The position numbers were made by a program, and so were the translations under genes. Below, one piece after another: positions 1 to 11,840 of a stretch of DNA of 64,000 nt. The DNA lies in assembly GCA_020073165.1 (NCBI GenBank), contig JAIQFP010000018.1, positions 1-64,000 of the forward strand, written 5' to 3'. The notes under the pieces were generated by a model that was not told the DNA's origin, ran no database searches, and saw only the letters and a program-made list of their open reading frames with translations. The DNA comes from Terriglobia bacterium (GTDB lineage: Bacteria; Acidobacteriota; Terriglobia; Terriglobales; Acidobacteriaceae). Position 1 is the stretch's first letter. Every line of letters starts with the position of its first letter.

Positions 1-789
1 GGAGGTGACCACCTCGCGCCGGAAGAACCCCTGTCCGCCGCCGAAGAGGCAGATGCCGCCCAGGCGCGGGTTCGCCTCCACCTCCACAGCCTCCAGCCAG
101 GACCGCTCCAGGCTCAGCAGCCGCACGAAGGCGCTGGCCGGGCCCTCGATCGTCGCGCAGATGCCCTGGATGGCCGCCGGCGGGTCCGGCTGCCCGAAGA
201 CGCGCACCAGTTCGTCGAAGGCTGCCTGGTCCATCTCATGGTCGGCGTCCAGGAAGCCGATCACGTCGCAAGCCGGCGCGCGGGCCACGCCGTAAGCGAC
301 GGCCGCCCCGCGCCCGCCGGGCGGCGTGGACTTGTCAATGGGCAGGATGCGCGGGTCCTCGGCGGCGCGCGCGCGCACGTAGTCCGCGCTGCCGTCCGTG
401 GAAGCCGCCTCAAGCACGTAGCAGAAGCGCAGCTCCCCGTCGTACTTCAGCGCCATCATGGCGGGCACGGTGCGCCGCAGGGAGACGATCTCGTTCAGCC
501 CGGGGATGACGAGCGCGATGGAGGGCCGGGCGTCGGTCGGCGGCGCCGGCCGGGGCCTGAAGAAGCGAACCACCACCGACAGGAACAGCGAGCGCAGGAC
601 CGTGCCGCCCCCGACCACCAGCGCGACCCACAGAAGCGGGGCGGCAGCGCGCGGGCAGGCAACGGCCCCTGCCGCGCCGGCCGCCAGCAGTACGGCGCAC
701 ACGGTCACGATGAGGCGGTGGCCCTTCCGCGAACCTTTCCCCTCGGTCACCTGCACAGCAGGTCCCTCCGCTTGGCGCCGTGCCCGCAT
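1..789 (-). CDS. Family 2 glycosyltransferase, membrane-anchored (partial, C-terminus off the window)
   Basis: Reading the minus strand from an ATG at 789 gives an uninterrupted 263-residue frame running off the window edge. Residues about 28-75 contain two hydrophobic segments, so the enzyme is probably anchored in the inner membrane. A GT-A fold follows: the opening strand IALVIPGLNE, a second conserved block around EAASTDG, and the metal/nucleotide-sugar motif GFLDADHEMD (a DxD equivalent). The end visible here, LGGICLFGGGQGFFRR, is typical of processive or polyprenyl-type GT2 enzymes. Substrate is unknown. The next gene, a PHP phosphoesterase, is divergent; in some phyla PHP and GT2 modules are neighbours or fused. 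This gene lies in the segment that appears foreign to the rest of the contig (see the junction entry). Confidence 0.8.
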   Translation of the reverse strand, partial: MRARRQAEGPAVQVTEGKGSRKGHRLIVTVCAVLLAAGAAGAVACPRAAAPLLWVALVVGGGTVLRSLFLSVVVRFFRPRPAPPTDARPSIALVIPGLNEIVSLRRTVPAMMALKYDGELRFCYVLEAASTDGSADYVRARAAEDPRILPIDKSTPPGGRGAAVAYGVARAPACDVIGFLDADHEMDQAAFDELVRVFGQPDPPAAIQGICATIEGPASAFVRLLSLERSWLEAVEVEANPRLGGICLFGGGQGFFRREVVTS

Positions 790-810
790 TATACCCGCCC
801 CGGCCCGGTC

Positions 811-968
811 TGCAATGCATTGGGGCGGACCCGGTTCCTGCTCGTGCTCCTGCTCGTGCTCGTGCTCCCGCTGTGGCCGTTCCTACCAGCGAGCAGGGAT
901 CAGTAGCCAACGCCTTCCGGCCGAGGTCGAGGTCGAGGGCGAGGGCGAGGTGCAATGCATATCGGGGA
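811..968. repeat. Hexanucleotide-word arms flanked by TGCAATGCAT
   Basis: The spacer between the GT2 and PHP genes contains degenerate tandem hexamers: CTCGTG/CTCCTG units at about 838-870 and GTCGAG/GGCGAG units at about 924-950. The two runs are roughly reverse complements of each other, and the whole is bracketed by the 10-mer TGCAATGCAT at about 811 and 953. The run resembles the word-arm elements found later in the window, but uses a GC-rich hexamer. No coding content is apparent. Confidence 0.5.
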
Positions 969-1049
969 CCGTCCGCCCGCTTCTCACGCCGCCCTAACCC
1001 GCTCCACAAGATCGCGCCGTACAATGTCTTACAGAAAGGAGAGAGAGGC

Positions 1050-1595
1050 ATGAACGCCATGCAATCGAGAGCCGACCTGCACACGCATAGCAAGCATTCG
1101 GACCGGCCCAGCGAGTGGCTGCTGCGCCGCATCGGGGCGCCGGAGAGCTTTGTGGAGCCGCTGGAGGTGTACGAGACCTGCCGCGCCCGCGGAATGGACT
1201 TCGTCACAATCACCGACCACAACCGAATTGACGGCGGGCTGGAGATCGCCCACCTGCCGGGCACCTTCATCTCCGCCGAGGTCACCACCTACTTCCCCGA
1301 GGACGGCTGCATGGTGCACTGCCTCGTCCACGGCATCACGCAGGAGCAGTTCAAGGCCATCCAGCAGGTGCGAGAAAGCATATACGAGCTGCGCCGCCTC
1401 CTCGTTGAGCAGGACATCGTGCACTCCATCGCCCACCCGCTCTTCAGCGTCCACGACCGCCTGACGGTGGACCACATCGAGAAGCTGATGCTGCTGTTCA
1501 ACCGCTTCGAGGGCCTCAACGGCAGCGTCAGCGCCCGCTCGAACAAGGTGGCCAACGCCGTCTTCCGCAGCCTGACGGCCCCACGAATCGCGTGA
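1050..1595 (+). CDS. PHP-domain phosphoesterase, C-terminally truncated at a contig join
   Basis: The start at 1050 is set by AAAGGAG at 1035-1041, and TACAAT at 1020-1025 is a plausible -10 element. Conserved PHP metal ligands are visible: DLHTHSKHS (residues 9-17), TITDHNRI (about 50) and the IAHP motif (about 128). The family hydrolyses phosphoesters with two or three bound metals. The protein ends after only 181 residues: FRSLT is followed by a few unrelated residues and a stop, whereas homologues continue with a further His/Asp-rich metal-binding segment. The missing part coincides with the start of the atpF homology, so the truncation is probably a chimeric join rather than a natural protein end. 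Confidence 0.75.
   Translation: MNAMQSRADLHTHSKHSDRPSEWLLRRIGAPESFVEPLEVYETCRARGMDFVTITDHNRIDGGLEIAHLPGTFISAEVTTYFPEDGCMVHCLVHGITQEQFKAIQQVRESIYELRRLLVEQDIVHSIAHPLFSVHDRLTVDHIEKLMLLFNRFEGLNGSVSARSNKVANAVFRSLTAPRIA
1570..1595. other. Probable chimeric junction between two genomes or loci
   Basis: The PHP gene is conserved in look up to about 1577 and then loses homology. The atpF frame is open from 1576 (a stop lies at 1573-1575) and already encodes the Glu/Asp-rich pre-membrane segment expected inside acidobacterial subunit b. Two genes are therefore both truncated at the same point, with no insertion sequence or direct repeat. An assembly chimera is the simplest explanation; illegitimate recombination is the alternative. 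Confidence 0.65.
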
Positions 1596-2175
1596 GGCTG
1601 CCGGCGAGGACGATCAAAGTCAGTTCAAACACTCATCTTCAGTTCAGTTGGTCGCCAAACTCACTGACCTTAGCCTGGAACACGCTTACTGGCTCTGCGT
1701 GTCGTTGAATTTCTTGGTCATTGCAGCGGTCATCATCTGGCTGTCGAAAAAGAACCTGCCGGGGATGTTTCGCAACCGCACTGCCTCCATCCAGAAGGCC
1801 ATGGAAGAGGCCCGCAAAGCCAGTCAGGACGCCAACCGGCGGCTAGCCGAGATTGAAGCGCGGCTGGCCCGCTTGGACGGAGAGATTGGCGAGATGCGCG
1901 GCGCAGCGGACAACGAAGCTGTGGCCGAGGAAGCGCGCATCAAGGCAGCCGCGGAGGAAGATGCGCGCAAGGTGGTGGAAACAGCGCAGCAGGAAATCGC
2001 CACGGCAGCCAAGACAGCACGTCGCGAACTGACCGCCTATGCGGCCGATCTGGCCGTGGCTCTGGCAAGAAAGCAGATCAAGGTAGACCCGGCCACGGAC
2101 CAAGGACTGGTACGCAGCTTTGCCGAACAACTTTCCAATGGCGGTCGGCGCAAGACCGGCAAGGAAGACTCATAG
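1576..2175 (+). CDS. atpF: ATP synthase F0 subunit b (5' end missing)
   Basis: Subunit b forms the peripheral stalk linking the membrane a/c ring to F1. The frame is open from 1576; EAAGEDDQSQFKHSSSVQ precedes a single membrane segment (AYWLCVSLNFLVIAAVIIWL) and a long charged coiled coil (EARKASQDANRRLAEIEARL onwards) ending in the delta-binding C-terminus. A TTG at 1648 could act as a start but has no ribosome-binding site and would remove the conserved acidic stretch, so I take the native start and signal-like N-terminus to be lost at the junction. The gene is 3 bases ahead of atpH, so the two are co-translated. Genes for subunits a and c are not in the window. Confidence 0.85.
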   Translation, partial: RPHESREAAGEDDQSQFKHSSSVQLVAKLTDLSLEHAYWLCVSLNFLVIAAVIIWLSKKNLPGMFRNRTASIQKAMEEARKASQDANRRLAEIEARLARLDGEIGEMRGAADNEAVAEEARIKAAAEEDARKVVETAQQEIATAAKTARRELTAYAADLAVALARKQIKVDPATDQGLVRSFAEQLSNGGRRKTGKEDS

Positions 2176-2178
2176 CGT

Positions 2179-2718
2179 ATGGCCTCCGTCACCAGCACCT
2201 ACGCCCGTGCCTTCGCCGACGCGGTCTTCGCCAGCCGGCTCGACGCGACCAAGACTTTGCGTGAGGCTCAATCCCTCGCGGCGCTTGTGGCCAGCAGCAA
2301 GACACTGCGCGACGTCTGGGAGACGCCCGCGATTCTGGCGGAACAAAAGAGGGCGGTGCTGGATGCCATGGTGGCCCGCGAGGGAATTTCCCGTCCGGTG
2401 CGGAATTTCATCGCGGTGCTGATTGATCACCGCCGCATTCATTTTCTCGAGCCTATCGTCAAGCAGTTTGAGCAGGAACTAAACCAGCGGATGGGATTCG
2501 CGGAAGCCGAAATCACCAGCGCGCGTGAGTTAAGCCCTGCCGAAAAGCGGGCGCTAGAGACCCAAGTAGAGAAATTGACCGGAAAGAAAGTGCAGGCCCG
2601 GTACTCCCGTAACCCGTCCCTTCTCGGTGGGGCCATCATCAAGGTCGGCAGCACTATTTACGACGGCTCGATCACGGGACAGTTGGAAAGGATACGGGAG
2701 GCGCTAAGCAGCAGTTAG
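2179..2718 (+). CDS. atpH: ATP synthase F1 subunit delta
   Basis: This 179-residue protein is the OSCP/delta connector between the peripheral stalk and the alpha3beta3 head. The N-terminal helical domain begins TYARAFADAVF, a typical delta opening, with RRIHFLEPIVKQF near residue 90. The C-terminal part carries the family signature of delta subunits, including GGAIIKVGSTIYDGSITGQL near residues 150-170. It starts 3 bases after atpF, consistent with translational coupling. A 129-bp spacer with a large nested hairpin separates it from atpA. Confidence 0.95.
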   Translation: MASVTSTYARAFADAVFASRLDATKTLREAQSLAALVASSKTLRDVWETPAILAEQKRAVLDAMVAREGISRPVRNFIAVLIDHRRIHFLEPIVKQFEQELNQRMGFAEAEITSARELSPAEKRALETQVEKLTGKKVQARYSRNPSLLGGAIIKVGSTIYDGSITGQLERIREALSSS

Positions 2719-2811
2719 CAATTGGCAATTAGCACTTAGCATTTAGCTGAGAGAGGTTCTTGCCAGTATTAGGCAGAAACCTCAGGGGCCAAGTGCTGAC
2801 TGCTAATTGCT
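2717..2811. repeat. Nested word-arm hairpin, atpH-atpA spacer
   Basis: Outer left arm: AGCAATT (2717-2723) and AGCACTT (2731-2737) inside a run of TTAGCA-like words. Outer right arm: AAGTGCT (2791-2797) and AATTGCT (2805-2811), their reverse complements. The inner hairpin pairs GGTTCTTGCC (2755-2764) imperfectly with GGCAGAAACC (2772-2781). The whole spacer can fold as one long imperfect stem-loop directly upstream of atpA. It does not end in a T-run, so it is not an ordinary terminator. Confidence 0.7.
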
Positions 2812-2814
2812 TAA

Positions 2815-4380
<1,566 letters not shown>

Positions 4381-4382
4381 GA

Positions 4383-4885
4383 ATGAGGATGAAGACAGCG
4401 CTTGCGGTGATTGGGTTGTTTGCCGCAGCAGTGTCGTGTGGCCCGCAACCGCTCTCGAAGCAGGAGTTGACGCAGCTAGGTGTCGATCAGGTTTCATCTA
4501 CTCGCAAAGCGATTGCTGATTCCTATCTGCGATGGATCGATGCCACCAAGGCAAAGAACGTGGACGCTGCAGTTTCACTTTACGACGATGAAGCCGTGAT
4601 GTTGCCAGACGACGCCAACACAGTGAAGGCAAAGACGCGATCCGCGATTTCTATAAGCAGTGGTATAGCGGCAACGACAAATTGATCAAGCAGCAGTTTG
4701 ACGATACGGGCTTGTTCATGAGCACTCCCGACATCGCCATCGAAACGGCGGATTTCTCCGGCGTATCGAATGTCGACGGGAAGGAAGTTGTGTTTCGAGG
4801 AAAGAATCTGATCGTCTGGAAGCGGCAGTCGGACGGTTCGTGGAAGATTTTGCGCGATATTTGGAACGTCTCGCCCGCAAAGTGA
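4383..4885 (+). pseudogene. Frameshifted SnoaL/DUF4440-like lipoprotein gene inside the atp operon
   Basis: The 5' part encodes a lipoprotein-type signal (TALAVIGLFAAAVSCGPQ) and then a ketosteroid-isomerase-like N-terminus (IADSYLRWIDATKAKNVDAA...). At about 4622-4632 the conserved reading continues in another frame as GKDAIRDFYKQWYSGNDKLI and runs to a stop at 4885, ending in the fold's final strand (DGSWKILRDIWN). Deletion of one base near the GTGAAGG at 4623-4629 would explain the shift. Intact, the protein would be about 167 residues, a usual size for SnoaL-like domains. Function is unknown. It may be a real pseudogene or a sequencing error; reads across 4615-4635 would decide. Confidence 0.75.
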
Positions 4886-4899
4886 GAGCTAGATAGCAA

Positions 4900-5946
4900 A
4901 TGGCCAACATACTCGATATTCGGCGCCGCATCCGCAGCGTGACCAACACGCGGCAGATCACCAAGGCCATGAAAATGGTTTCGGCGGCAAAGTTGCGCCG
5001 TGCCCAGGAACGGGCGCTGGCGGCGCGTCCCTATGCGCAGATGCTGACCAATGTTCTCAAGTCGCTGGTGTCGCGAGCAGAGATCTATGATCCCGAAACC
5101 GGCGCGCCTCGTCATCCCCTCCTGGCTCAGCGGAATGAGAAAAATATCCTTCTGATCGTAGTTGCGGGTGATAAGGGTCTCGCGGGCGCTTTCAACACCA
5201 ACATCCTGAAAGCAGCCGCGCGCTTCCTCGAGACCGAGTTCGGCAAGAACATTGAGATCGAAACTATTGGCCGTAAAGGGCGAGATTTTCTGCGTCGACG
5301 TTACGCGTCCGCTCCGCCGCGCGACGCAGAATCCCAGGAGTCACCGCGCACCACGATTGTTGGTGAGCAGGTCGGCGTCTTGAACAAGGTTGAGTATGCC
5401 CTGGCATCAGCCCTGGCCGAGCGCGTGATCGAGCGCTACGGCAAGTGCGAGATTGATTCGGTTTACCTGGTGTTCAATGAGTTCAAGTCGGTAATCGCCC
5501 AGCGCCTCATCGTGGAGCAGATTCTACCCGTCGAGCAGATCGGTGTCGCCCCCGTGCTTCAGGCTGAAGAGATGACCCAGAAAGAACGGGAACGGGCGCT
5601 CGAGGCGGCAAAAGCTGCGGGAGTAGGACTCCGCGCGGCCGACACGCGTGCGATGGACGCTGCCGCTGCCCGCTTCGCTGCTGCGCCGGTAGATTACATC
5701 TATGAGCAGCCGGCGGCGGAGCTGTTCAACTCGCTGCTCCCGAAGTACGTCGGCATTCAGATTTTTCATGCCTTGCTGGAGTCGGTCGCGGCCGAGCATG
5801 CCGCCCGCATGACCGCCATGGACGCGGCCACCAACAACGCCACCGACATGATCGATTCCCTGACGCTGGCCATGAATCGCGCCCGCCAGGCGAAGATCAC
5901 GAAAGAGATTATCGAGATTGTAAGCGGAGCAGCAGCCGCACAATAG
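4900..5946 (+). CDS. atpG: ATP synthase F1 subunit gamma
   Basis: Gamma is the rotor shaft of F1. The N-terminal helix is typical (RRRIRSVTNTRQITKAMKMV), as is the C-terminal helix (MTAMDAATNNATDMIDSLTL) that inserts into alpha3beta3. At 348 residues it is longer than the usual ~290. The extra length lies in at least two places: an insert around residues 140-160 (RRRYASAPPRDAESQESPRT) and a charged alanine-rich helix near 225-260 before AAPVDYIYEQ. The inserts have good coding character and look lineage-specific. Confidence 0.95.
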   Translation: MANILDIRRRIRSVTNTRQITKAMKMVSAAKLRRAQERALAARPYAQMLTNVLKSLVSRAEIYDPETGAPRHPLLAQRNEKNILLIVVAGDKGLAGAFNTNILKAAARFLETEFGKNIEIETIGRKGRDFLRRRYASAPPRDAESQESPRTTIVGEQVGVLNKVEYALASALAERVIERYGKCEIDSVYLVFNEFKSVIAQRLIVEQILPVEQIGVAPVLQAEEMTQKERERALEAAKAAGVGLRAADTRAMDAAAARFAAAPVDYIYEQPAAELFNSLLPKYVGIQIFHALLESVAAEHAARMTAMDAATNNATDMIDSLTLAMNRARQAKITKEIIEIVSGAAAAQ

Positions 5947-7441
<1,495 letters not shown>

Positions 7442-7446
7442 GGACA

Positions 7447-7517
7447 GTCGTCAGTCGTCGGTCGTCAGTCATCGGCAAGATCGAACTTGCGGAGACTTGA
7501 CAGCTGACGACTGACGA
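7447..7517. repeat. Nested word-arm hairpin, atpD-atpC spacer
   Basis: Left arm: repeated GTCGTCA words, with TCGTCAGTCGTC at 7448-7459. Right arm: TGACGACTGACGA at 7505-7517, its reverse complement. Between them is a short inner hairpin, GCAAG (7475-7479) with CTTGC (7486-7490). This is the same outer-words/inner-hairpin plan as at 2717-2811, built from a different word. Confidence 0.7.
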
Positions 7518-11718: not shown

Positions 11719-11830
11719 AGCATTCAGCCCTGAGCCCTCAGCCAAACCAGCATCTTCGGCTCACTTTCCTTGAGGACCCTTCAAGGATAGGGTAGGACCG
11801 GTGATGGCTGAATGCTGAGTGCTGAACGCT
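11719..11830. repeat. Nested word-arm hairpin, gph-E1 divergent spacer
   Basis: Outer arms: AGCATTCAGCC (11719-11729) with its exact reverse complement GGCTGAATGCT (11806-11816), each continuing into TGAGTGCTGA-like words. Inner hairpin: TCCTTGA (11767-11773) with TCAAGGA (11781-11787). The decamer TCAAGGATAG also occurs twice (11711-11720 and 11781-11790). The element sits between two divergent genes and overlaps their likely promoters. Confidence 0.75.
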
Positions 11831-11840
11831 GCCTGCCCAG

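Follow-up and report, generated by a model that had tools for sequence, protein, structure and literature searches.

The junction close to the start of the window (the whole stretch of 64,000 nucleotides that was analyzed, bases 1–64000 of contig C12 of the host genome) is very probably a chimeric contig end, a routine data error without biological meaning. Bases 1–1577 and bases 1588–64000 are not of common origin. Window base 1 (G000:C12:1) is the physical end of the contig, and only 1.58 kb separate it from the junction. The host genome consists of 35 contigs with 4.6 Mb, and its assembly is rated as 100% complete and 0.33% contaminated, which suggests that even an assembly with such ratings can bear kilobase-long foreign tails at its contig ends. 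Recognizing the chimera keeps the host species from being wrongly credited with gene transfer, gene loss, or a defective ATP synthase. The initial annotation had offered two readings, a chimeric contig or an unmarked recombination joining two loci; our analysis supports this choice of readings and favors the chimera, the host half severed at the junction having been located on another contig, C16.

To the right of the junction the window carries the ATP synthase genes of the host. The gene for subunit b (atpF, 1588–2175, forward strand), of which the 5′ part is absent, has a Pfam ATP-synt_B match (1.1e-16), and its product is 87% identical to the 255-residue protein of G001, a genome of the same genus. 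It is followed by the intact gene for subunit delta (atpH, 2179–2718, forward strand; Pfam OSCP, 2.4e-43), in an order identical to that of G001, and by the gene for subunit alpha (2848–4380, forward strand), which was taken from the list of open reading frames. Collinearity of the window with G001 begins at 1588 and reaches at least 3674. From 1588 to the end of the G001 locus (L009), the DNA identity is 87.4% over 2093 columns. The atp operon of G001 is intact, with b′ (172 residues, Pfam ATP-synt_B) preceding b, and farther upstream G001 encodes a membrane protein and a GTPase resembling HflX, names that were read from the translations. Among the relatives of the window b gene (best 29 loci fetched), b′ is directly upstream of b in 28; the exception is L036, in which b begins 228 bases from the start of the locus. 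Neither of the two left-piece genes described below, PHP and GT2, was found beside b in any of the 29 loci, for which flanking sequence of at most 1.5 kb was fetched. A relative with the gene order of the window, which the initial annotation had named, together with even and spanning read coverage, as what would speak against a chimera, is thus absent from this set. The order b′-b-delta-alpha of the relatives' F-type ATP synthase operon is otherwise followed, as in G001 and G010; unlike in the relatives, the junction interrupts the window b gene within its 5′ part, and b′ is truncated on a different contig. A search of the host genome for a second intact b gene found none, and returned a single b-like match. 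Farther to the right, two frames (4335–4685 and 4682–4885) in the gap between the alpha and gamma genes (4381–4885) resemble, by eye, one small secreted ketosteroid-isomerase-like protein that is apparently frame-shifted; the alpha–gamma spacing in G001 is 68 bases.

The two sides of the junction can be delimited to within a few codons, and they agree with what had been annotated from the letters of the window: a PHP protein no longer recognizable from about 1577, and a b frame open from 1576 that has no start codon or signal sequence. The b frame is indeed open from 1576, immediately after a TGA at 1573–1575, and protein homology in the best matches begins at residues 3–6. The G001 protein has a hydrophobic N-terminus and about 60 N-terminal residues more than the window protein; the start codon and the signal-like segment of this orthologue are absent from the window, in which the N-terminus is incomplete. 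DNA homology to G001 begins abruptly at 1588, and leftward of 1586–1588 the in-register identity is about that expected by chance. On the PHP side, columns were counted over 80 relatives (the best 80 of 272 loci). Conservation is clear up to residue 176, with residues 175 and 176 (L and T, nucleotides 1572–1577) common to 75 and 54 of the 80 relatives, and is lost at residues 177–179, which match only 2, 1, and 4 of them. Residue I180 (nucleotides 1587–1589) is again common to 55 relatives and A181 to 9; the bases of I180 also lie within host-like codons (ESR in both the window and G010), and the two sides may therefore overlap by a few bases. The sequence thus places the break within 1577–1589, the zone in which PHP conservation ends and host homology begins, and any overlap of the two apparently does not exceed a few bases. 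The PHP gene and the b gene are both severed within the same 12 bases or so. No long shared sequence is seen at the C12 break, and this leans towards a chimeric molecule as the probable source of the join.

The left piece contains parts of two genes. The family 2 glycosyltransferase (GT2) gene at 1–789, on the reverse strand, is truncated by the contig end to 263 codons and has a match to Pfam Glycos_transf_2 (5.7e-09) and a GC3 of 0.913. The second gene, at 1050–1577 on the forward strand, encodes the N-terminal 176 residues or so of a PHP (CehA/McbA-like) and GT4 glycosyltransferase protein, truncated by the junction, as judged from column conservation and 69% identity to L038. Its frame as read in the window, 1050–1595, gives 181 residues and aligns to longer proteins. 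In six PHP relatives (L038–L043), to which the N-terminal stretch of about 176 residues is 56–69% identical, the frames extend about 410–670 residues beyond the end of the window copy. In the protein of L038 (845 residues), the PHP part is followed by glycosyltransferase group 1/family 4 domains, which occupy 452–804; measured against this protein, the window protein is without about 670 residues. The window copy therefore resembles a PHP-GT4 fusion protein over its N-terminal part, the GT4 domains being shown for L038 only, and it differs from L038–L043 in stopping where their frames continue. The fragment gave no Pfam match and scored 34 bits against the NCBIfam CehA/McbA model, the cutoff of which is 80, so that PHP is a weakly supported name for the fragment itself.

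The relatives of the PHP fragment were collected by a pattern-based scan of the genome collection, of which the best 80 of 272 loci were used. The closest of these 80 are 69, 67, and 63% identical and belong to metagenome-assembled genomes of an uncultured bacterium (two cases) and of Kiritimatiellaceae; Lentisphaerae and others come next, among the matches listed. Around the host, 9 of 61 genomes match, namely the host itself at the window locus and 8 others, whose matches have E values of at least 9e-19 and identities of at most 44%. Around the genome of L038, 22 of 97 genomes match, the best being the genome of L038 itself (68%). Searched in the six genomes with the best PHP matches, GT2 gave weak matches only, in two of the six. 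The donor of the left piece was perhaps a GC-rich bacterium of the Kiritimatiellae/PVC side, as G066 (Kiritimatiellae, the genome of L043) is among the relatives of G061. Separate searches of the two halves, which the initial annotation had proposed, thus lead to different groups among the matches listed: the best match of atpF is in the same genus (87%), and the best match of PHP is in other phyla (69%).

The composition of the left piece also sets it apart. For the first 1500 bases the tetranucleotide distance reaches 0.411 and exceeds that of every one of 276 overlapping interior pieces (mean 0.250, maximum 0.346), and this is the outcome of a comparison that had likewise been suggested beforehand. 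The GC content is 0.69 in the left piece versus 0.603, and GC3 is 0.91–0.93 in its genes versus 0.69–0.80 in five atp genes. The spacer at 836–951 holds GC-rich repeats of period 6/12 (Tandem Repeats Finder arrays 836–872 and 922–951); to the right of the junction, up to 12000, there are five arrays of period 7 and others of periods 9, 12, and 14, in keeping with the difference in spacer repeats that had been annotated. The warning that the left part should not be credited to the host is borne out by affinity and composition together. The period-7 tandem arrays are short (2710–2747, 5951–5972, 7445–7475, 11724–11743, and 11807–11831); the first three lie between the host atp genes or just past them, and at a score of at least 40 only those at 2710 and 7445 have period 7 in the whole window.

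When the region upstream of b in G001 was compared with the host assembly, it matched C16:1335–2598 (86%), at the end of that contig. The match ends abruptly inside the 3′ part of b′, and no match to the G001 upstream region was found in C16:1–1334. In G001 coordinates, the breaks at C16:1335 and C12:1588 are 227 bp apart, and this 227-bp stretch, from the end of b′ to the middle of b, was not found in the host assembly. The tail of C16, 1.33 kb long, contains a C-terminal MraY fragment (C16:1–135; TIGR00445, 3.6e-20), a CYTH frame that is open at one end and lacks a start codon there (C16:134–661; 8.7e-15), and a TPR protein truncated at the junction (C16:819–1331). It is AT-richer, with a GC content of 0.454 over C16:138–1334. 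The two tails that flank one 227-bp gap thus differ in GC content (0.69 on C12 versus 0.454 on C16) and in their genes, and they do not look like a single insert. We suspect that the C16 tail is itself composite, because the stop of MraY directly precedes the start-less CYTH frame. The idea that a single uniform insert separates C12 from C16 was considered on its own and is disfavored by the same GC values and gene content.

We propose that window 1–1577 is DNA of another bacterium that was fused, at the contig end, to a host contig stopping inside atpF. The fusion would have arisen in vitro or in silico, during library preparation or assembly; the candidate routes are a molecule formed by ligation, a read that is itself chimeric, and an erroneous overlap. 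Host coverage or assembly would have failed between the end of b′ and mid b, which are 227 bp apart in G001, and C12 and C16, flanking this gap, would each have been extended into unlike DNA. Chimeric ends are the best reading because both genes are cut together, the host half lies elsewhere, and the flanks resemble neither the host nor one another.

The main alternative is that foreign DNA was inserted into the host chromosome by a real illegitimate recombination that split b′ and b and deleted 227 bp. We regard this as very unlikely. The small distance between the two breaks in G001 would be expected if an insertion had been accompanied by a small deletion, and unlike DNA is indeed present on both sides of the gap. 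Against it, the two sides are unlike in GC content and genes, one of them looking composite, and the single b-like match would leave the host with an ATP synthase without intact b and b′. No transposase or integrase was seen among the ORFs of the C12 and C16 tails, the unassembled middle lying outside this view, and window 1–1700 gave zero blastn matches to plasmid and phage collections at an E value of 1e-5. The chimera is favored over recombination because the severed host half is on C16, whose end also meets unlike DNA. The related and even less probable idea is that the host took up short fragments of unrelated bacteria by illegitimate recombination, one of them replacing the 227 bp and breaking the stator genes. 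As separate candidates, a plasmid or phage origin of 1–1700 was rejected on the same searches of both collections, and an integrated mobile element is not supported by the assembled tails, in which GT2, PHP, MraY, CYTH, and TPR fragments were found but no integrase, transposase, or phage genes.

Contigs often end at strain differences. A rearrangement carried by a minority of the cells and followed by the assembler would fit this, but each side of one 227-bp stretch would then have to be fused to unlike DNA, and we consider such population heterogeneity extremely unlikely. Almost no credence can be given to ordinary horizontal transfer placing the GT2 and PHP genes beside the host atp operon: the PHP family does span phyla, but PHP and b are cut within the same few bases, unlike in a transfer of intact genes, the host upstream region is on C16, and the arrangement occurs in none of the 29 relative loci. 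Transfer of intact genes was rejected on the common cut and on the location of the host upstream region.

Chimeric contigs that combine the sequences of two organisms are described for metagenome assemblies in two papers (PMC7111523, PMC10978663), and such chimeras are, in the experience of the authors of one of them, rare (PMC7111523). The window resembles the contigs described there in having two organisms' sequences in one contig. It differs from them in that the foreign DNA forms end tails of 1.3–1.6 kb, on both sides of one host gap.

Tails at other contig ends of the host assembly may be of the same kind. All 70 contig ends were scored by tetranucleotide composition against the 276 interior pieces; 13 of them lie above every interior piece and 30 above the interior 95th percentile (0.292). 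Composition alone is non-specific, because the ends of the host genome are often atypical, and several atypical ends are due to transposases or repeats. The 13 outliers include C12s, C16s, C21s, and C31e (s, contig start; e, contig end), as well as C8e, C15s, C22e, C29s, and C32e; also among them are C3e, with IS21-type genes, and C26e and C31s, with transposases, these three as read by eye, and C2s, which is partly masked. C18s is outside the 13 and was selected by its GC profile. Genes were viewed at 15 of the 70 ends and five ends were compared with G001; the ends were picked for odd composition, hence they give no rate. The tails of C16, C18, C21, and C31 were termed odd from composition and gene content together.

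The C21 start tail (L145:1–1942), with a KaiC match (1.7e-141) and a GC content of 0.407, precedes a break in G001 homology at about 1943. The adjoining G001 sequence is on host C3:127213–128098, with about 0.6 kb of G001 sequence not found between; the G001 match on C21 spans only 1943–2539 (597 bp), and 2540–5000 is also without a long match. The C18 start tail (L142:1–1011; acyltransferase, GC 0.693) meets a break at about 1012, across which lies a gene whose partial cNMP-binding match falls slightly under the cutoff. A search of the assembly for the host half severed from C18 gave only a 68% match on C3, and that half was not located. G001 homology breaks again within the same end (1672/1811), so that a break alone proves nothing. 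The C31 end tail (L190:3671–5000; S1/P1 nuclease, 5.7e-52; GC 0.671) has its break at about 1331; a second copy on C23 covers the breakpoint region (91%), and C31 is doubtful as a chimeric case. The C18, C21, and C31 ends, weaker cases than C12 and C16, are suggestive of further chimeric tails but are not proof of them. Many contig ends share identical or near-identical stretches of about 200–250 bases (for example C13s/C23s/C25s/C3s and C14s/C15e/C4e/C24s/C33e/C34e), as expected for contigs that stop at repeats.
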